Origin: Echinicola soli
GTDB taxonomy: Bacteria > Bacteroidota > Bacteroidia > Cytophagales > Cyclobacteriaceae
Assembly: GCF_006575665.1 (NCBI RefSeq)
Contig: NZ_CP041253.1
Location: 4,839,501 to 4,903,500 of the forward strand
DNA: 64,000 nucleotides
Direction: 5' to 3'
The position numbers and the translations under genes were made by a program. The notes beneath the pieces were generated by a model that saw nothing but the letters and a program-made list of their open reading frames with translations, ran no database searches and had not been told where the DNA came from. Every line of letters starts with the position of its first letter. Positions within the stretch are counted from its first letter, which is position 1. Shown here one piece after another: positions 500 through 9,901 of the stretch.

Positions 500-892
500 A
501 TGATAAGGTCGTTATTCTACATATGGCTTTCGATGATTATAGTACTGAACAGTATGATCTTTTCAGTCATCCAGATGGATTACGTCCTCAATAAGGAATA
601 TATAGCAGAAAACCTTTGTATCAATAGGGATAAGCCAGAGATGCACTGTGATGGGAAATGTTTTTTGGCCGAAAAGCTTAAAGAAGCCCAAGACCAAAAA
701 GAGCAACAACCTGGCGGCATAGATTTTAGTCGGGACTTCGGCATCTATATTTTACAAGAAAACCATTTTGGGTTTCAGGGACTCAAAATTCCCAATAATT
801 TGCCCATTGCATTTTACCAAGGGGGAAATTGTTTTCATACCTCTACGGACATTTTTCATCCTCCGAAAAACAACAGTTTACTTATCGCTTAA
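500..892 (+). CDS. Small membrane-anchored protein with conserved Cys motif
   Basis: This is a 130-residue protein of unknown function. Residues 1-25 form one hydrophobic segment, which could be an uncleaved signal anchor. Then comes a Cys-rich block with C40, C50 and C54 in the arrangement C-x9-C-x3-C (MHCDGKC), followed by a charged stretch and a C-terminal tail ending in FHPPK. I recall similar short proteins in other Bacteroidota near outer-membrane receptor and metal genes, but no function is known to me. It lies 270 nt upstream of the di-haem/MbnP operon on the same strand, so a role in the same metal or redox process is plausible but is inference. The start at 500 gives the complete hydrophobic segment; internal ATG codons at residues 12 and 19 are alternatives. 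Confidence 0.7.
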   Translation: MIRSLFYIWLSMIIVLNSMIFSVIQMDYVLNKEYIAENLCINRDKPEMHCDGKCFLAEKLKEAQDQKEQQPGGIDFSRDFGIYILQENHFGFQGLKIPNNLPIAFYQGGNCFHTSTDIFHPPKNNSLLIA

Positions 893-1161
893 AAGAAATA
901 CGCATAGGTTTTGCCAACCTTCATGGCATGCCCTGCCTTCTGGAAAAGGCTTTATCATGCGTGATGAGCGTGCTTTATTTCAAAAAATGTATTAACAAGA
1001 GTGCTTGTCCCAGTAAATGGGTGCAGTGATTTTCTGTATCAACATAGAAAAACAGGACGGCCATGCGCTGTCCTTAGGCCATTTATGTAGTGCGCCATTT
1101 GCATTACAGGCTTTTCTGAACAGAATCATGATGCCACTGGGACAGTCTCTGCATATCCTAT

Positions 1162-2292
1162 TTGATTATGCGATACCCGCACCTATTTTATTTGGGAATA
1201 ATATTCGTATGTGGTTTGCAATGGGCATGTGGGAATGGAGAGGAAGAACAACCTTCTCCCCAAAACCCCAGCCTTTCGCTTCAGCATCCCGAGTACTTCC
1301 CCAATGACGTGCCCATGCCATCTGACAATCCCCTGACCGAAAAAGGCGTGGAACTTGGGCGCATGTTGTTCTATGAAAAACAACTGTCCATAGACAGGAC
1401 AATCTCCTGTGCTTCTTGCCACCAGCAGGAAAAGGCATTCACAGATGGTAAAAAAATAAGCACCGGCATCCATGATACTCCGGGTGATAAAAATGCCATG
1501 TCCCTGGCTAACCTGCACTGGACTTCTCGTTTTTTTTGGGATGGAAGGGCCGCTACCTTGGAAGAACAGGCACTACAGCCAATCGAGGATCATCGGGAAA
1601 TGAACCTGCCACTGGATCAGGCTGTAGCACGCCTTCAGGCCGATGAACAGTATCCTGAACGATTTAAGGTGGCATTTGGCACCGATCAAATTACCGAAGA
1701 GCTGATCGGAAAAGCCATTGCCCAATTCATGAGGACATTGGTTTCCGGCGATTCGAAATTTGACCGATGGATCAGGAGTGAAGTGGAGTTCACCGAACAG
1801 GAGCAGCTCGGAATGGAGTTGTTCTTCACCCATCCAGAGCCTTCCCTGCAGATTCGTGGCGGCAACTGCGGTGACTGTCACCTCGGTTTTCTGACCTCAG
1901 GAGACAGGAACAACCTATTGGGCTTTCACAACAATGGACTGGACATTGACCAAGACCTCGAAGAAGGCCTCGCCGCCGTGACAGGAAACTCCAGGGACAA
2001 AGGAAAATTCAAAGCACCAACACTCCGTAATATTGCTTTGACAGCTCCCTATATGCATGATGGGCGTTTTGGGACGCTGAAAGAGGTGCTGGAGCATTAT
2101 GACCAACATATCCAAATGAACAGCACGCTGGATATCCTCATTATGGAAGCCAGCAATGAGGATATCCTATCAGGAAAAGCCATTAAGCTTCATTTAACAG
2201 ATAGTGAAAAGGAGGCCATTATCACTTTTCTCCACACGTTAACAGACGAAAAATTTATTAACAATCCGAAATTTTCGGATCCATTTAACTAA
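1162..2292 (+). CDS. Di-haem cytochrome c peroxidase/MauG-family protein (MbnH-like), copy 1
   Basis: This 376-residue exported protein belongs to the bacterial di-haem cytochrome c peroxidase/MauG family. The N-terminal hydrophobic segment ends at Cys23, which could be lipidated, although the lipobox (QWAC) is imperfect. Two c-type haem motifs are visible: CASCH at residues 83-87 and CGDCH at 236-240. The family signature TAPYMHDGR follows at 294-302. Classical members reduce H2O2; MauG and MbnH instead use a bis-Fe(IV) state to oxidise tryptophan in a partner protein. The gene is first of a tight operon and lies 9 nt before an MbnP-like gene, which favours an MbnH-type role over general peroxide removal. 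It is a paralogue of the protein at 3057-4118. The family is certain; the substrate is inferred from the neighbour. Confidence 0.9.
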   Translation: MIMRYPHLFYLGIIFVCGLQWACGNGEEEQPSPQNPSLSLQHPEYFPNDVPMPSDNPLTEKGVELGRMLFYEKQLSIDRTISCASCHQQEKAFTDGKKISTGIHDTPGDKNAMSLANLHWTSRFFWDGRAATLEEQALQPIEDHREMNLPLDQAVARLQADEQYPERFKVAFGTDQITEELIGKAIAQFMRTLVSGDSKFDRWIRSEVEFTEQEQLGMELFFTHPEPSLQIRGGNCGDCHLGFLTSGDRNNLLGFHNNGLDIDQDLEEGLAAVTGNSRDKGKFKAPTLRNIALTAPYMHDGRFGTLKEVLEHYDQHIQMNSTLDILIMEASNEDILSGKAIKLHLTDSEKEAIITFLHTLTDEKFINNPKFSDPFN

Positions 2293-2301
2293 GCAATTGA
2301 C

Positions 2302-3042
2302 ATGAAAAAAATAGCAATAATAGTATTGACGGTTTGGACTCTTACAGCCTGCAACGACCGAGAGGAAACACCTTCCGGCATGGCCGTAAGCTTTAGCTTT
2401 TCCCATGTACTGGATGGAAATCCACTTGAGCTGGAAGGCGACGCTTTCACGTTGCCTTCAGGGGAGAGCTTCACTCCGCGAAAATTTAAATATTATATCT
2501 CAAACATCACCTTCAAGAACAGCATCTCTGGCAGCAGTTATACCGTATCAGATGGCTACTTTCTTATCGACGAGGCAGGAAAGAAAAAATTCAGCGTGGA
2601 AATTCCTTCTGACGATTATGATGCGCTCACCTTTTATGTGGGGATCGACAAGGCACGAAACTTATCCACTGACCAAGTGGGCGACTTGGATCCGAGCAAC
2701 GATATGGCCTGGAACTGGAACACCGGGTATAAATTTCTGGTGCTGGAAGGGGAATGGGAATATGAGTCTGATGAACGACATGGCCTGGTTGTACATATTG
2801 GCAGTAATGACCCTGAAAGCGAACAAAATTTCAAGGCCATCAATTTTGACCTCGCTTCAGCCGGGCAATCCTTGGGTTCTGAAGCAGTAGTCCAGCTTGA
2901 CTTCCAAGCGGAACTGAACGAACTATTTATGGATCCCAACGAGCTTATTCTTCACGAGCTGGAAAACACCAGTATTAAGGGCGGAAAATGGGCCGTCAAT
3001 ATTGCCAATAATTATCAAGAAGGGTTCTTTACACTCCAGTAA
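2302..3042 (+). CDS. MbnP-like copper-binding lipoprotein
   Basis: This 246-residue predicted lipoprotein (lipobox LTAC, Cys17) resembles the MbnP family. Features seen are the block ITFKN after a KFKYYIS strand (about residues 61-73), the stretch MAWNWNTGYKF (136-146, with W137 and W139) and His160/His165 in RHGLVVHIG. In methanotroph MbnP and MopE/CorA proteins a tryptophan is converted to kynurenine by an adjacent di-haem enzyme and then helps bind copper. Here the gene sits between two such di-haem genes, 9 and 14 nt away. I infer a surface copper-binding protein matured by one or both neighbours. I cannot tell from sequence alone which tryptophan would be modified. No methanobactin biosynthesis genes are nearby. 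Confidence 0.85.
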   Translation: MKKIAIIVLTVWTLTACNDREETPSGMAVSFSFSHVLDGNPLELEGDAFTLPSGESFTPRKFKYYISNITFKNSISGSSYTVSDGYFLIDEAGKKKFSVEIPSDDYDALTFYVGIDKARNLSTDQVGDLDPSNDMAWNWNTGYKFLVLEGEWEYESDERHGLVVHIGSNDPESEQNFKAINFDLASAGQSLGSEAVVQLDFQAELNELFMDPNELILHELENTSIKGGKWAVNIANNYQEGFFTLQ

Positions 3043-3056
3043 CGTGTTTTACCAAT

Positions 3057-4118
3057 TTGAAAAAGGCAATTACATATCGACTGCTCCTCCCTCTATGCCT
3101 GAAAATACTGTTGGTAGGCTGTCTTCCGGACGCTGCGGATAATCAAGGGAAATCACCGGACTATTTCAGCCCTGTGGTTTCCCCCAGCCTTCTTCAGGAG
3201 GATTTTCCCCAACCAGCTAGAAACCCCATGAGCAAACAAGGGGTATTGCTGGGAAAGACCTTGTTTTATGATCATGGCTTGTCAGCCAATGGTAAAGTGA
3301 ATTGCGCAAGCTGTCATTTGCCCCAATTGGCTTTCAGTGACGGAGTTAGTCTTAGTGATCAAGGGGTATCGGGTAAAATGCTCCACAGGCACTCTCCCGC
3401 CCTTTTCAACATGACCTGGCACAAAGGACTGTTTTGGGATGGGGGATCGACCAATTTGGAATCGCTGGTCTTTGGTCCGCTGACCCATCCAGATGAAATG
3501 GGGGCAGACTTAAATGAAGTCATCCATTATTTACGTGGTAACCAGGACTATTCCGAGCTGTTTAAGGCAGCTTTTAAGACGGATACCATCACCAGTGCAT
3601 TCATCAGCCGGGCTTTGGCCCAATTTGTCAGAACGCTCATTTCCCAGGACAGTCGGTATGACCAATGGCAGAGGAAAGAAACGGATTTTAATCCACAAGA
3701 AATCAGCGGTTATCAACTGTACCAAAAGCACTGCAACAGCTGTCACCAGGAGGGCTTATTTACCGATCTTCAGTACCACAATAATGGCCTGGATGCGACA
3801 TACCCCGATCCAGACGAACTGGAAGAGCTGTTGCTCGGCCGCTACCGGATTTCTTTTGACGACCAGGACTTAGGTGCCTATAAAACCCCTTCCCTGAGAA
3901 ATATATACCTGACGGCTCCTTACATGCATGATGGGAGGTTCGAAACGCTGGAAGAGGTACTCGATCATTATGAAAACGGTATCCAACGTAATGGGAGCTT
4001 AGCTCCTGAACTGGAAAACGGGATCAATTTGACCAATCAGCAGCGAGAAGACCTATTGGCTTTCCTTGCGACCCTGACCGACCACACATTTATCAACAAT
4101 AAAGCTTACCAAAAGTAA
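3057..4118 (+). CDS. Di-haem cytochrome c peroxidase/MauG-family lipoprotein (MbnH-like), copy 2
   Basis: This is a 353-residue paralogue of the di-haem protein at 1162-2292. A good lipobox (LVGC, Cys22) predicts a lipoprotein. The haem motifs are CASCH at 83-87 and CNSCH at 226-230, and the family signature TAPYMHDGRF occurs near the C-terminus. The reading frame opens with TTG at 3057, which is needed to include the basic start of the signal peptide (MKKAITYR). No in-frame ATG gives a complete signal peptide. It follows the MbnP-like gene by 14 nt and precedes the beta-barrel gene by 10 nt. Two di-haem enzymes around one MbnP suggests division of labour, such as maturation versus electron delivery, but this is not shown by the sequence. 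Confidence 0.9.
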   Translation: MKKAITYRLLLPLCLKILLVGCLPDAADNQGKSPDYFSPVVSPSLLQEDFPQPARNPMSKQGVLLGKTLFYDHGLSANGKVNCASCHLPQLAFSDGVSLSDQGVSGKMLHRHSPALFNMTWHKGLFWDGGSTNLESLVFGPLTHPDEMGADLNEVIHYLRGNQDYSELFKAAFKTDTITSAFISRALAQFVRTLISQDSRYDQWQRKETDFNPQEISGYQLYQKHCNSCHQEGLFTDLQYHNNGLDATYPDPDELEELLLGRYRISFDDQDLGAYKTPSLRNIYLTAPYMHDGRFETLEEVLDHYENGIQRNGSLAPELENGINLTNQQREDLLAFLATLTDHTFINNKAYQK

Positions 4119-4128
4119 GCCCAGAAAA

Positions 4129-5223
4129 ATGAGAAAAAAGCTATTCATCTTATTCATAATAATATTATCACTCCCCTTGCTATCAAACGAGGCCAAAGCC
4201 TGTGACAGCTGCAATTTCTTCGAATATAGCCTATTGCAAAACAGGAGCTATATTGGATTGTTTTACAGACATCGACAGTTTGGTGGATATGACCAATACG
4301 GCTACTCCTCTCCCAGCCCAGGAACCGCTTTGGTCACCAGTAAGCTACCTGCTGGATTTGAAAATGGAGTTGTTGCCAAATACACCCCCAATGCTCGTAA
4401 AGCCGCCTCTCCATCGATCGATCAGGACTTAATAGTGATGCACGAGCCAGAAGGCACGGGGCTGTATGTCAATAAAACCGATCAGGACTGGGAAACCTAT
4501 GAAACCGTAGAGCTCAGGGGAAATTTTACCTGGAAGAACAAGTGGAACTTTACCTTTATCCTCCCTTTTGAATCCAATAGGATACACTACCAAAAAATGT
4601 TGGACCTGCCCAACCCCGTTCAGGATACGACTTTGACCGTGCATGGCTGGGGGGACATGACTGTGGCCGCAGATTACATCCATTATATTTATAATACCAA
4701 AGCCCGCCATACCTTTAGGCCAGGATTGGCCATTGTCGTTCCTACTGGCCAATCAAACAAGGTAGCTTCAAATAATAGTCCATTTGATCCGATCATCCAA
4801 CCTGGAACCGGATCCTGGAGCTATGTCGCCCGGTTCAATTACCAATTGTTCTATACCAAAACCGGCCTAAATACCGGATTCAGCTACAAGCAATCCACCG
4901 AAGGGGCCCAAAACTACCAGTTCGGAAGTAGTTTTAATGCCTCAGCTATTGGCTTTCACCAAATATCCCTCCAAGATGACTGGATGCTCATACCCAATGC
5001 CGGTGCCTATTACGAACAATCCCATAAGGATACCTGGACGGATGAAAAGCAACAGCTTACCGGTGGAAAAGTAGTCTTTGCCCAAGCGGGACTAGACGTA
5101 AATAGACAAGAATGGACTCTCAGTTTGATGTGGCAAACACCAGTGTACCAAGACCTGAACGGCAACCAAATCCACCATCAAAACCGGATCAGTATTGGTT
5201 TTATCAAAGCTTTTAAACTATAA
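4129..5223 (+). CDS. Outer-membrane beta-barrel-like protein with N-terminal CxxC
   Basis: This is a 364-residue protein with a signal peptide that appears to end at AKA, leaving a mature N-terminus beginning CDSCN (Cys25, Cys28). The CxxC lacks the following His, so it is not a haem c site; it could bind a metal or form a disulphide. The rest is rich in alternating hydrophobic/aromatic strands, glycine and asparagine (for example around residues 130-160 and 255-340), as in outer-membrane barrels. It ends in a hydrophobic/aromatic strand (FIKAFKL). I do not recognise a named family. It closes the di-haem/MbnP operon (10 nt gap), and a terminator-like hairpin lies 90 nt downstream. A transport or docking role for the copper-related lipoprotein is inference only. 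Confidence 0.75.
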   Translation: MRKKLFILFIIILSLPLLSNEAKACDSCNFFEYSLLQNRSYIGLFYRHRQFGGYDQYGYSSPSPGTALVTSKLPAGFENGVVAKYTPNARKAASPSIDQDLIVMHEPEGTGLYVNKTDQDWETYETVELRGNFTWKNKWNFTFILPFESNRIHYQKMLDLPNPVQDTTLTVHGWGDMTVAADYIHYIYNTKARHTFRPGLAIVVPTGQSNKVASNNSPFDPIIQPGTGSWSYVARFNYQLFYTKTGLNTGFSYKQSTEGAQNYQFGSSFNASAIGFHQISLQDDWMLIPNAGAYYEQSHKDTWTDEKQQLTGGKVVFAQAGLDVNRQEWTLSLMWQTPVYQDLNGNQIHHQNRISIGFIKAFKL

Positions 5224-5380: not shown

Positions 5381-6715
5381 TTACAAAGCGATCTGAAATT
5401 GCATTACGGCCATTCCTTTACGCTCATCAGTGACATAATTCCCTTCACTGGCTGCCGCAAAGATGGGACGGCTCTGATAACTCAGGGACAGTTTAACCCG
5501 ATTCCCATCGATCAGCCAGTTGACGCCCCCATCATACATGGCCATGGGATCATCCAACAGGTCAAAATTGGAATATTGGCTGCTGATATAAGGCTGCAGT
5601 GTGCCTGCTTTTCCAAATAAGTCCCTTCTAAACAGGTACCCAAACTGCGCATAAAACGTATTCCCTGTGCCAATGGTCGGAAAGGCACTTCCCGGACCAT
5701 TGAGTGTTCCTTCAGCATTGACTCCGGTGGCAGGATTCATCGCACCGATATTTCTGAGGTAATTTTTTCCATAATCGCTATACGTATAAGCTGCGTAGGC
5801 TGTAATAGCGTTTCCTTTGCTGGGATCTATGGGTCGATCATAGAATGCATCAATGGCAAAAATCCCCAGATTGGTCCTCACTGTATCGGTGGTATTATCT
5901 GCATAATGCCACATCGCATCCTTCTGGGCCATAAAGCCTGCACCAATGTTAAACACACTTTTGGTTCCCAAATAAGATCCCGCTTGGTAGGGTGTCGTGT
6001 TGGATTCCTTGTCCAAAAACATGTATTTAAAATAACCATGGTACTGGGCATATCCTATTTCTGAAGTAAACAGGGAATTTTCATCAATCACCGGCTCCTG
6101 GACAGAAGACGGTTCGATGGACATGGGTTTGGACACGGCCATTCGGTAATCCAGTTTCCCCAATTGCCCCTTGGCATAGATACTTAGCTTACGGACAAAT
6201 TGATCATTCACGTCATTGGTGGCCTGCTGGTACAGCGGGGCATCCAAAGAAAGGATCGAACCAATAGAAGGTGACGAATAACGGGACACACCGTTCCACC
6301 CTGTCAGACCGGCACCGATGGACAATTTTTCTTTGGCCACTTTATATTCCCCAATCGCGTCCAGGAAAAAAATCCCCTGCTTTCGCGGTGACCGGTAGGA
6401 CAAATTGTTTTGACCAAATTGTGTATAAAAAAACACCTTGTCTGTCAACTGGCCAAAAACCTGTATACGCGTCCTTCTCAGTCCAATGTCCATGATCTGG
6501 TCATCAGGGGTGCCATAAACTTCGGAGCCTGGGTTGGCCTGTGTGTAGCGTAGCCAAATCTGATTAAGAAATGTCCCTTTCACATAATGACTACCATCAT
6601 CATTGAGGTCAAAGCGCAATTCCTTTTTCTTTGGTGTAACAGAAGGTGAAGTTTGTGCCCAAGTAGTAATGGAAAAGGTAATAAAAAAGGCAAAACAAAC
6701 ACTAAAGTACTTCAT
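5381..6715 (-). CDS. OprO/OprP-like porin
   Basis: This is a 444-residue outer-membrane protein with a clear signal peptide (cleavage near TWAQ). The mature part starts with a KKELRFDLNDDGSHYVKGT-type strand followed by many amphipathic strands, and it resembles the phosphate-selective porin O/P family of Bacteroidota. The LRRTRIQVFGQLTDKVFFYTQFG region (about residues 83-105) is typical of that family's early strands. Substrate cannot be read from sequence. It is transcribed away from the TonB receptor gene, with a 275 nt AT-rich divergent spacer that presumably holds both promoters. It converges on the MbnP operon through a shared terminator. Family assignment is good; ion specificity is unknown. 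Confidence 0.8.
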   Translation of the reverse strand: MKYFSVCFAFFITFSITTWAQTSPSVTPKKKELRFDLNDDGSHYVKGTFLNQIWLRYTQANPGSEVYGTPDDQIMDIGLRRTRIQVFGQLTDKVFFYTQFGQNNLSYRSPRKQGIFFLDAIGEYKVAKEKLSIGAGLTGWNGVSRYSSPSIGSILSLDAPLYQQATNDVNDQFVRKLSIYAKGQLGKLDYRMAVSKPMSIEPSSVQEPVIDENSLFTSEIGYAQYHGYFKYMFLDKESNTTPYQAGSYLGTKSVFNIGAGFMAQKDAMWHYADNTTDTVRTNLGIFAIDAFYDRPIDPSKGNAITAYAAYTYSDYGKNYLRNIGAMNPATGVNAEGTLNGPGSAFPTIGTGNTFYAQFGYLFRRDLFGKAGTLQPYISSQYSNFDLLDDPMAMYDGGVNWLIDGNRVKLSLSYQSRPIFAAASEGNYVTDERKGMAVMQFQIAL

Positions 6716-6990
6716 GATAATTAATAAAATTTAAATTGGGATACTGTTAAGCTTATTCCTACGGAATAAAAGGCCATTCATCCATCATTTGCTTATTTTT
6801 TATGTAAAACAAGTATTAATGTTTATGAACGGTAACACTCATCATTAATAGAATAGAAACCGTCAATATTCGATAAACCTTACGAAAAGCACATATCTAT
6901 TATTTAGTCAAAGCTAATTTTTTTTTTATATATATTTAATATTTAATTTCGCTAATAGTAAATAAAAATTTAGCACCTATACAAACAAGC

Positions 6991-9351
6991 ATGAAACAAT
7001 TAACAACGATCATATTGCTTTTACTGGCTACCCACAGTCATGCCCAAAGGACCGGAGAGATTTCCGGAACGGTTATGAACGCTGTACAGGCATCGGTCTA
7101 TGCTTCCATTCAAGTAGTGGGCACTGACCTTGGCTCATCCACTGCAGCAGACGGATCATACAAAATCGATAACGTTCCAGCTGGCGCCACCACCATAAAA
7201 GTAAAACTTTTGGGCTATCAAACCGCCCAAAAAACCGTCATCGTAGTCGCAGGACAAAGTATAAAAGTAGATTTTCAACTAAAAGAGGATAACTTAAACC
7301 TCAATGAAGTGGTCATCAGTGCCACCCGTTATGAACTGGACCGAAAGGAAGCTCCAGTTGTGGTCAATGTCCTTAGTCCCAAACTGTTTAATGCCATCCA
7401 GTCCGTATCCTTGTCTGAAGGTTTAAATTATCAGCCTGGGGTCCGGGTAGAAACCAATTGCCAGAACTGTGGCTTTACCCAGGTCAGACTGAATGGTTTA
7501 GAAGGTGCCTATTCCCAGATCTTGATCAATAGCCGCTCGGTGTTCAGTTCGTTAAACAGTGTTTATGGCCTTGACCAAATCCCCACCAATATCATCGAAC
7601 GCGTGGAAATCGTGCGGGGTGGCGGATCTGCCCTTTTTGGTTCCAATGCCATAGGCGGTACCATTAACATTATCACCAAAGAACCCGTAGAAAATACTTG
7701 GCAAATCGGATCCAACTTTTCCCTTATCGATGGTACTACTTCGGACAATTCCCTCAATTTCAATGGATCTCTCACCAGTGAAGACCTTGGCTCAGGAGTT
7801 ACCTTTCACGGCCTATACCGCCAGCGCGGCAGCTACGATGCCAATGGAGACGGTTTCACCGAAATCACGCATTTAGAAAACAACACTTTTGGCATGAAAG
7901 CGTTCTTGAAACCAGGTGAACACAGCAAGATAAGTTTGGACTTCAGTGCCATCAAAGAGTACCGCCGAGGTGGAGACCACTTAGATATCCCTCCGCATTT
8001 TACCGACATTACCGAAGAGCTTACCCACAATACCATCATTGGTGGATTGACCTATGAGCTGTACAGCAAAGACCACAAAAATCATTTCTCCACCTATATG
8101 TCTGGTCAAAAAACAATCAGGGACAGTTATTATGGCGGCTTAGGAGGAGGGCGAACCACTGCTGACAGCACATTGGCTGCCAATGCATATGGTAAAACCA
8201 ATGACGTATCGCTGGTGGCCGGAAGCCAATTTTCCAGAAATTTCACCAATAACGACGTCGTTATTTTTGGAGCTGAATATCAGTTAAGCGATGTGGAAGA
8301 CGAGATCAAAGGCTACCAGCGCCTTATTGACCAATCTGTCAATACCATTGGGGTTTATGGCCAGTATGAATGGCGCCCTAATGACAGGCTCACTGCGCTA
8401 ATGGGAGGTAGATTTGACCATACCATGGTCGATGGCCACTACGAGCTGTCTTCCATCTCCCGCTCTACCAATGTGTCAACGGGCGTATTCAGCCCACGTG
8501 CCAATATCCTTTATGATATAAGAGAATATCTTCAATTCCGGATTGGCTACGCTCGTGGATTCCGGGCTCCACAGGCCTTTAATGAAGACCTTCATATCTC
8601 CTCTGTTGGTGGGGAGCCTACCTTTGTGATTCTTTCGGATGACCTGAAAACAGAACTCTCCGATGCATTTACCACTTCCCTAAATTTCACCAAAACCATC
8701 GGTGACCTGCAATTTAGCTTCTTGGCAGAAGGTTTTTATACCGTGCTAAAACGGCCATTTACTACGGTCAGCACAGGGGCTACACTTCCTAACGGATCCA
8801 TTCTGGAAGAAGTCAGAAATGGAACCGGTGCCTTGGTTCGAGGAGGGAATTTTGAACTGAATCTCTCTCCTTCCTCCAAGGTGACCGTACAAACGGGAGG
8901 AACCTTGCAGCAGTCGACATATAATGAGCCACAGGTCCTCTTCGAACCTGAAGGGGAAAACGAAAATGAACCAACCGTAACTACTGATGAGTTTCTTCGT
9001 TCCCCAAATGCTTACGGCTATCTCTCTACCAATTTCGCCTTGACCGAGCATTTGGGACTGGACCTGACCGGTGCTTATACCGGCTCCATGATAGTACCGC
9101 ATGTAGTGAGCGAATCGGGTTTTATTGACTTGATAGACAGCCAACAGTTTTTTGATGCCAATATCAAGCTGGCTTACCACTTTGACCTCATCAGCGGTTT
9201 TCATATGGAGCTTTCGGCGGGTGTCCAAAATGTCTTTAATAGCTACCAGAATGATTTTGACACAGGTGCTTTGCGGGATTCCAATTATATTTATGGACCT
9301 TCCAGACCAAGAACGCTTTTCTTCGGTGTGAAAATTGGTGATTTCCATTGA
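6991..9351 (+). CDS. TonB-dependent outer-membrane receptor with CxxC in plug
   Basis: This 786-residue receptor has a signal peptide (to about Ala18) and a carboxypeptidase-regulatory-like beta domain (20-97). A TonB-box-like stretch NLNEVVISATR (103-113) leads into a plug of about 120-235 with the ending GGGSALFGSNAIGGTINIITK. A 22-strand barrel follows and finishes with FFGVKIGDFH. The plug carries C157 and C160 in NCQNCGFTQVRLNGLEG, a variant I associate with a Bacteroidota receptor group near metal genes. It imports a ligand across the outer membrane using TonB/ExbBD energy. With the MbnP/di-haem operon nearby and a thioredoxin-like gene behind it, copper or another metal complex is a reasonable guess. 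The ligand is not determined by sequence. Confidence 0.88.
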   Translation: MKQLTTIILLLLATHSHAQRTGEISGTVMNAVQASVYASIQVVGTDLGSSTAADGSYKIDNVPAGATTIKVKLLGYQTAQKTVIVVAGQSIKVDFQLKEDNLNLNEVVISATRYELDRKEAPVVVNVLSPKLFNAIQSVSLSEGLNYQPGVRVETNCQNCGFTQVRLNGLEGAYSQILINSRSVFSSLNSVYGLDQIPTNIIERVEIVRGGGSALFGSNAIGGTINIITKEPVENTWQIGSNFSLIDGTTSDNSLNFNGSLTSEDLGSGVTFHGLYRQRGSYDANGDGFTEITHLENNTFGMKAFLKPGEHSKISLDFSAIKEYRRGGDHLDIPPHFTDITEELTHNTIIGGLTYELYSKDHKNHFSTYMSGQKTIRDSYYGGLGGGRTTADSTLAANAYGKTNDVSLVAGSQFSRNFTNNDVVIFGAEYQLSDVEDEIKGYQRLIDQSVNTIGVYGQYEWRPNDRLTALMGGRFDHTMVDGHYELSSISRSTNVSTGVFSPRANILYDIREYLQFRIGYARGFRAPQAFNEDLHISSVGGEPTFVILSDDLKTELSDAFTTSLNFTKTIGDLQFSFLAEGFYTVLKRPFTTVSTGATLPNGSILEEVRNGTGALVRGGNFELNLSPSSKVTVQTGGTLQQSTYNEPQVLFEPEGENENEPTVTTDEFLRSPNAYGYLSTNFALTEHLGLDLTGAYTGSMIVPHVVSESGFIDLIDSQQFFDANIKLAYHFDLISGFHMELSAGVQNVFNSYQNDFDTGALRDSNYIYGPSRPRTLFFGVKIGDFH

Positions 9352-9415
9352 GATGGGAAGTGTTGAATATTTAGGGATTGAAAAGTACTAGCTAATCGAT
9401 ATTTCACCTATAGTT

Positions 9416-9901
9416 ATGAAAACATTATTGCTCCGGTTTATTGTGATGACGGGTATATTTACCTGTCATCACACTACCTCTTCAGGACAAGAAAAGATCA
9501 ACTGGTTAACTTTTGAGCAATTGGAAGATTCGCTTCAAAAAAAACCAAAAAAAGTATTTGTTGATTTTTACACCGACTGGTGTACCTATTGTAAAAAAAT
9601 GGACAAAAAGGTATTCACCCATCCCGAGGTCATCTCCGTCATAAACTCGGCCTACTATGCGGTCAAGATGGATGCAGAAAGCAGGGATACTATTCGTTTT
9701 GATGGCCACCTCCTGGTCAATCACCAAGCTACCGATAAGCGACCTGGCATCCATGACATGGCCCTGTTACTTGGCAGTCGGAATGGGGAGTTCATCCCCC
9801 CTTCCCTCATCCTGCTGGACGAGCAGTTTAAGGTCATCGATCGGAAATTTGAGTACCTCTACAGTGAAAGGCTGTTAAAGTGGCTGCGACAATCGCCCTA
9901 A
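9416..9901 (+). CDS. Secreted thioredoxin-fold protein
   Basis: This 161-residue protein has an N-terminal hydrophobic export signal and a thioredoxin-like domain. The redox motif is in FYTDWCTYCKKM (C56, C59), preceded by a KKVFVD strand. A cis-proline-type segment (GEFIPPSLILLD) lies further on. It probably reduces or isomerises disulphides of periplasmic or outer-membrane proteins. It starts 64 nt after the TonB receptor on the same strand, so co-transcription is likely. Receptor and operon barrel both carry CxxC pairs that could be its substrates, which is inference. The domain call is secure; a more exact subfamily (thioredoxin_7/DUF255-like) is less so. Confidence 0.85.
   Translation: MKTLLLRFIVMTGIFTCHHTTSSGQEKINWLTFEQLEDSLQKKPKKVFVDFYTDWCTYCKKMDKKVFTHPEVISVINSAYYAVKMDAESRDTIRFDGHLLVNHQATDKRPGIHDMALLLGSRNGEFIPPSLILLDEQFKVIDRKFEYLYSERLLKWLRQSP

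Follow-up and report, generated by a model that had tools for sequence, protein, structure and literature searches.

The closest described counterpart of the system analysed here is the pair of MbnP (structure 7l6g) and the di-haem enzyme MbnH of the methanotroph Methylosinus trichosporium; structure 6e1c is the one which we take to be this MbnH. As Manesis reportedly found in 2021, the site of the Methylosinus MbnP uses one histidine and one methionine residue, and its kynurenine is said to be the first tryptophan of a WxW motif. The occurrence of MbnH-MbnP pairs outside methanobactin operons is already known (PMC3621798, section 12). If the kynurenine proposed below is formed, MopE/SACCP and CorA/CorB of methanotrophs are alike in that a di-haem enzyme stands next to a surface protein whose copper site contains kynurenine (PMC3912023). 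Here we describe an operon of Echinicola soli (Bacteroidota), which occupies positions 500 to 5223 of a window of 64,000 nucleotides (nt), i.e. of the whole stretch of DNA that was analysed (contig NZ_CP041253.1, positions 4,839,501 to 4,903,500); coordinates are those of the window, and all genes of the operon lie on its forward strand. With a probability of about two thirds, it is a copper-handling operon based on the MbnP/MbnH principle, which probably serves uptake and in which tryptophan oxidation prepares a Cu(I) site at the surface.

Compared with the pair of Methylosinus trichosporium, the operon contains two di-haem enzymes instead of one, adds a leader and a barrel protein with a CxxC motif, and lacks methanobactin genes. 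The leader is an open reading frame (ORF) of 130 amino acids (aa; 500-892); it is separated by a gap of 275 nt (893-1167) from the gene of enzyme A (1168-2292; 374 aa). The genes of MbnP (2302-3042; 246 aa), enzyme B (3057-4118; 353 aa; start codon TTG), and the barrel (4129-5223; 364 aa) follow at spacings of 9, 14, and 10 nt. These four tightly spaced genes and their gaps agree with the original prediction, which let the operon begin at position 1162 and missed the leader; the unit starts at 500. For enzyme A, a TTG at 1162 and an ATG at 1168 are available as start codons; we took the latter, and the Met-Arg-Tyr stretch found there occurs also in a congener (L039). Pfam assigns CCP_MauG, MbnP, and CCP_MauG to the genes at 1168-4118 and no family above cut-off to 4129-5223. 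The original expectation of a pair without methanobactin is borne out, although this was known; judged by sequence, what the locus adds is the two-enzyme form with its leader. No description of the two-enzyme form is among the papers listed for MbnH with MbnP, for MbnH, for MbnP, and for MbnP with copper and Bacteroidetes, a literature in which subscription papers are poorly covered, so that an earlier mention is possible.

The product of 2302-3042 belongs to the MbnP family and fold. It matches PF20243 with an E-value of 4.8e-43 and 147.7 bits (cut-off 27), and the structure comparison which the original prediction of an MbnP-like lipoprotein had suggested as a check gave a match to the fold of 7l6g. 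Behind the predicted lipid anchor Cys17, the protein contains W137 and W139, which form the WxW motif, as well as H160 and H165, all numbered as predicted; M135 lies two positions before WxW. In a set of 141 MbnPs, W137 is conserved in 139 (lost or unaligned in just two), H165 in 132, and M135 in 115. With respect to the two histidine ligands proposed originally, H165 can thus be retained, whereas H160 is no ligand of the family, because its position is not conserved across MbnPs; the overlooked M135 is the likelier second ligand. An acidic stretch behind the lipid cysteine is found in 65 of 85 MbnPs and in 34 of 127 other lipobox ORFs, the latter being drawn from any frame. A loss of WxW upon loss of the enzyme was not seen: eight of 19 MbnPs having no adjacent enzyme keep all four residues, and all ten searched genomes with such an MbnP hold a TIGR04039 match somewhere (some of them weak or long, 615-690 aa). 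Neither a MopE nor a CorA chain is among the matches listed in the sequence and fold comparisons of MbnP. The host genome, a single contig of 5.55 Mb, encodes one PF20243 protein; the closest other MbnP is that of E. rosea (83% identity).

Five Echinicola genomes possess a second MbnP, designated P' (L032:12053-12850, L033:12122-12916, L034:12075-12872, L035:12256-13080, L036:12502-13326), which follows a leader-like ORF behind the barrel; two further copies occur in L072. P' keeps WxW, carries Ser or Ala at position 135 and Glu at position 165 in all seven cases, and forms a clade with a support of 0.999; it is absent from the window. In G010, the MbnP frame (L039:8668-9636) comprises 322 aa, compared to 246 aa here, and overlaps the start of enzyme B.

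Both enzymes match PF03150 (A: 8.8e-62, 208.6 bits; B: 7.2e-53, 179.7 bits; cut-off 25.6) and possess two CxxCH motifs, at residues 81 and 234 in A and 83 and 226 in B. For either, the best relative of solved structure is 6e1c_A ("Di-heme enzyme"), with E-values of 2.6e-61 and 2e-48; sequence identities are 41.6% for A and 6e1c, 38.1% for B and 6e1c, and 37.9% for A and B. Among 15 residues checked against 6e1c, which in A include Trp124, Gln134, and Glu144, all are present in A and 14 in B, where a leucine replaces Gln134. The tyrosine at the position of the sixth, axial ligand (Y311 in A, Y305 in B) aligns with that of 6e1c; of 136 aligned enzymes including 6e1c, 128 share Tyr311 and 135 share Glu144. 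In agreement with the MauG-like di-haem type predicted for both, these sequences identify A and B as MbnH-like members of the MauG/bacterial di-haem peroxidase superfamily. The genome contains three TIGR04039 matches, namely A, B, and a 615-aa frame away from MbnP (G000:C1:1491728-1492606).

A and B are two old enzyme lineages. In the enzyme tree, the upstream enzymes of the 15 loci with the order A-MbnP-B form, together with that of L078, a clade of exactly 16 (support 0.973), and the 15 downstream enzymes lie within a clade of 18 (0.998), one member of which (L072) is located upstream of its MbnP. In a larger tree, the B clade grows from 18 to 25 members (0.994), and the smallest clade holding the 16 A enzymes comprises 60 (0.91), many of which are not beside MbnP and some of which lie downstream of it; since positions are mixed in this clade, the rule that A stands upstream is limited to the clade of 16. 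The trees are single, midpoint-rooted FastTree runs, and enzymes longer than 480 aa were excluded from both.

The bracketed order A-MbnP-B was found in 15 of 59 related genomes, i.e. in ten of the eleven of the genus (this one included) and in G020, G021, G042, G045 (two MbnPs), and G052. Among named records, the order occurs in Echinicola arenosa, E. pacifica, an uncultured Pontibacter, Rufibacter roseus, and Adhaeribacter terrigena (two MbnPs). Enzymes were assigned to A at an A5 score above 430 bits and to B at an A6 score of at least 384 bits (next scores, 396 and 373), the cut-offs being chosen after the score lists had been seen. Thus defined, A is encoded in 27 and B in 23 of the 59 genomes, each of which also encodes MbnP (present in 40). 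B accompanies A in 22 of 27 genomes and occurs in 1 of the 32 others (Fisher p = 1.8e-10); outside the genus, the values are 12 of 17 versus 1 of 31 (1.0e-6), and for MbnP genomes outside the genus 12 of 17 with A versus 1 of 13 without (7.8e-4), p values which overstate the association because the genomes are related. In six of the 22 genomes with both enzymes, A and B are on different contigs of drafts (the unit of G012 may have been cut by a contig end). The two enzymes belong together, as they co-occur even when not adjacent; because MbnP genomes keep both even when they are apart, co-operation is favoured over redundancy.

In a sample of 296 genomes from the phylum, 78 have a PF20243 match; the 80 loci contain 83 MbnPs, 81 of which have a di-haem gene on the same strand within 300 nt. 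For two MbnPs (L105, L132), the scoring gave enzymes on both sides; the upstream gene, however, encodes a 649-aa protein in one case and belongs to the preceding MbnP in the other, so that none of the 80 loci shows the order A-MbnP-B. In the cases scored as "upstream only" (L083, L145), the reading frame overlaps MbnP and extends downstream. Of 63 MbnPs of at least 200 aa in 94 loci that were chosen for an A-like enzyme, 20 have two enzymes behind them. We discarded the idea that each enzyme generally serves one tryptophan: W139 is kept in most loci with a single enzyme and lost in seven of these 20 MbnPs. The first gene caller dropped the MbnPs of L039 and of nine phylum loci, which a later pass recovered.

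Enzymes of the A type also occur with other neighbours. In seven loci (L185, L187, L190, L191, L194, L195, L208), they adjoin an exported protein of about 165 aa, which shows the molybdopterin-binding fold PF00174 in L185 (E 7.7e-8, tested there only) and was recognised in the others by eye or by size; it is a possible further substrate for this enzyme class. A gene for a protein of about 670 aa resembling a TonB receptor is often near this pair (read in L185 and L190), and in L195 binding-protein and permease genes follow (PF13531, PF00528). In G022 (L161:6299-9559), a DUF3050 gene (PF11251, E 2e-98) takes the place of MbnP between an A-type and a B-type enzyme; MbnP lies elsewhere in that genome with no adjacent enzyme.

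The best copper evidence for the operon is its leader. CutF of Rhodobacter capsulatus and CruR of Bordetella pertussis are likewise small proteins with a cysteine motif and a C-terminal proline pair, followed on the same strand and behind a gap by the next gene, and they head metal operons; they are of the exported type which a hydrophobic N terminus suggests for the leader as well. Copper genes have been described behind CutF-like leaders (PMC9973294), and MbnPH-like genes in cruR operons (PMC9426467). In the leader, the hydrophobic N terminus is followed by C40-x9-C50-DGK-C54 and a C-terminal HPP (P121-P122) eight residues before the stop. It also displays features by which CutF-like proteins are recognised in PMC9973294: fewer than 150 aa, CxxxC (C50-C54), PP within the last 15 residues, and a gene on the same strand within 1000 nt (here 275 nt). 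It is the sole match to such leaders in the genome at E up to 0.01; Pfam gave no family (best E 0.21), and DUF2946 (PF11162), the family of CruR, is not among its matches up to E 1. All 95 distinct relatives of the leader found in loci keep CxxxC. Their final 27 residues include PP in 94 cases, preceded by His in 52 and by Arg in 18 of them; among 1667 unlabelled ORFs with lengths of 100-160 aa, by comparison, 143 have such a PP. When the search was made with a model restricted to the N-terminal part, which had been trained on leaders of 15 among the searched loci, 93 leaders were found; since 92 of them have PP, the proline motif is no effect of recruitment. The last cysteine and PP are 65-70 residues apart in the middle 80% of the relatives; C-x9-C-x3-C and [HRK]PP are separated by about 67 residues, in contrast to 45 in both CutF and CruR. 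The median distance from leader to next operon gene is 137.5 nt (84 cases), versus 7 nt between other genes (289 cases). Of the 296 phylum genomes, 115 encode such a leader; in favour of the copper-handling reading, these are 56 of the 78 genomes with MbnP, compared to 59 of the 218 others.

The region 860-1200, which includes the gap, folds better than shuffled sequences (z = -2.68; one of 100 shuffles was as good). Ribosome-binding sites are little relied on in Bacteroidota; for this reason, a CruR-type termination is as likely as a CutF-type unmasking of such a site, despite the well-folded gap. A C-rich signal for loading of Rho is unsupported (C 21%, G 22%). When ten Echinicola upstream regions were aligned, in which L035 and L036 are shifted by a longer ORF call, no clear block of a shared operator was visible by eye beyond the leader's own start. 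By eye, the gap between leader and A measures 495 nt in L037 and 664 nt in L039, with inserted similar-looking sequence, and 235-355 nt in the other eight Echinicola genomes examined.

In the barrel, C25 and C28 follow a signal-like stretch and would thus lie at the mature N terminus, as predicted originally. Its model (mean predicted local distance difference test, pLDDT, 78.7; below 50 at residues 16-28, which hold CxxC, and 61-112) resembles the COG4313 channel 4rl8 and FapF, with template modelling scores of 0.65-0.72 normalised to the target; the CxxC at the presumed mature N terminus and the linkage to MbnP distinguish it from these. CxxCxC opens many of the distant operon partners. Barrels of this kind are encoded on the same strand within 4 kb of 29 of 58 MbnPs in the related genomes and 32 of the 83 in the phylum. 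That barrel and second enzyme extend the minimal two-gene set had been proposed originally; both recur as partners in other genomes.

The following mechanism explains these results best. The CutF-like leader would sense copper during its own synthesis, and its HPP stall-type motif would, together with the long gap, set the output of the downstream genes. MbnP, a lipoprotein by prediction, would be exported and probably reach the cell surface. By analogy with its family, MbnH-like enzymes would oxidise Trp137, the first tryptophan of WxW, to kynurenine by means of H2O2. The kynurenine would prepare a Cu(I) site in which H165 and probably M135 take part, and from which the barrel with its N-terminal CxxC may pass copper through the outer membrane. 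Enzyme A, in which all residues checked against 6e1c are present, is the likeliest source of the kynurenine; enzyme B most likely works on the same MbnP as a non-redundant partner. A bolder version, in which two non-redundant MauG-type enzymes finish one MbnP by successive or different oxidations of the WxW region, thus creating a copper site unlike that of methanotroph MbnP under the control of a nascent-chain sensor of Bacteroidota that responds to copper and carries an HPP stall motif, is in our opinion rather doubtful. Several observations weigh against a copper-handling operon for uptake. The proteins fall below the cut-offs of the narrower equivalog families of the Methylosinus pair, MbnP scoring 49 versus 140 bits for TIGR04052, and A and B 282.8 and 234.2 versus 362.85 bits for TIGR04039. 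Enzyme genes are not adjacent to 18 of the 58 MbnPs of the related genomes. Leaders also exist in the 59 phylum genomes that lack MbnP. In the phylum, no more than 37 of 83 MbnPs have a leader at most 1 kb in front of them or of the enzyme gene that directly precedes them, and among the relatives no more than 31 of 58; L066 was counted as having one, although it sits between two MbnP genes. Of the 15 A-MbnP-B loci, 12 have a leader and three show none. A promoter scan found 14 hits versus 14.8 in shuffles, and nothing in the data fixes the direction, uptake or tolerance.

It is conceivable, but on balance somewhat unlikely, that A and B are independent or redundant, one serving MbnP and the other another exported protein such as P' or an unlinked substrate. 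The position of P' directly behind the operon in five Echinicola genomes would fit this idea, as would the many genomes with A-like enzymes away from MbnP, the DUF3050 gene enclosed in G022, and the molybdopterin-fold neighbour in other genera; P' is, however, missing here, and of the five bracketed loci outside the genus, four (L043, L044, L063, L070) lack it too, which makes it a weak reason for a second enzyme; the co-occurrence of A and B even when apart and the good support of the clades of 16 and 18 likewise speak against this idea. That the operon serves copper tolerance or storage, its leader switching on at high copper as CutF does for a copper oxidase, we consider unlikely: CutF acts in this manner and CruR in the opposite one (PMC9973294, PMC9426467), and the well-folded gap resembles that of the CutF model, but CorA of the analogous kynurenine class is repressed by copper (PMC3912023), and cruR operons with MbnPH-like genes are described along with copper uptake (PMC9426467).

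A metal other than copper, or a metal-free redox cofactor, is quite improbable. P' has lost both probable ligands in seven of seven cases and yet keeps WxW, and other metals have been suggested as signals for some CutF-like leaders (PMC9973294); MbnP itself has M135, W137, and H165, and the cysteine motif of the leader is of the kind found upstream of copper genes (PMC9973294). Least of all do we expect an operon for peroxide defence, in which the di-haem proteins would be ordinary cytochrome c peroxidases and MbnP an accessory. True cytochrome c peroxidases have a methionine at the sixth-ligand position; A and B, although members of PF03150 that match cytochrome c peroxidases of known structure, share with 6e1c and most of the aligned enzymes a tyrosine, and MbnP is the constant neighbour.

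Behind the operon (5381-9901), a porin-like gene on the reverse strand, a TonB receptor gene with CQNCG in the plug, and a thioredoxin-like gene are located; the same trio stands at this place in the other nine operon-bearing Echinicola genomes, with the exception of L039, for which that gene caller gave no gene order. A role of the TonB receptor at 6991 as copper receptor is unsupported, its best solved relatives being a TonB-linked receptor and the colicin I, haem, and B12 receptors, matched mostly in the plug. Upstream of the leader, L031-L038 contain a HemN-like ORF of 446-450 aa (oxygen-independent coproporphyrinogen oxidase, with a radical-SAM cysteine motif seen by eye) and an ORF of 93-94 aa; both are absent at that place in this genome.

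Bacteroidota leaders that end in proline are known for secretion genes (PMC10987492), and surveys of leaders in this phylum differ: a recent search for RAPP/RGPP leaders reports none for copper (PMC12992588), whereas CutF-like proteins are numerous, 40% of them coming from Bacteroidota after normalising and 19% without (PMC9973294, the main text of which does not contain "Mbn"). The [HRK]PP form would escape the RAPP/RGPP search. MbnP-type sites, for which a haem enzyme rewrites a tryptophan to prepare copper binding, are known from a methanotroph; the operon of Echinicola soli would represent a compact form in Bacteroidota. Because the two-enzyme arrangement is natural, deletions of single genes offer a test for a division of labour, and the leader family may allow a direct test of copper-sensing translation arrest in Bacteroidota.

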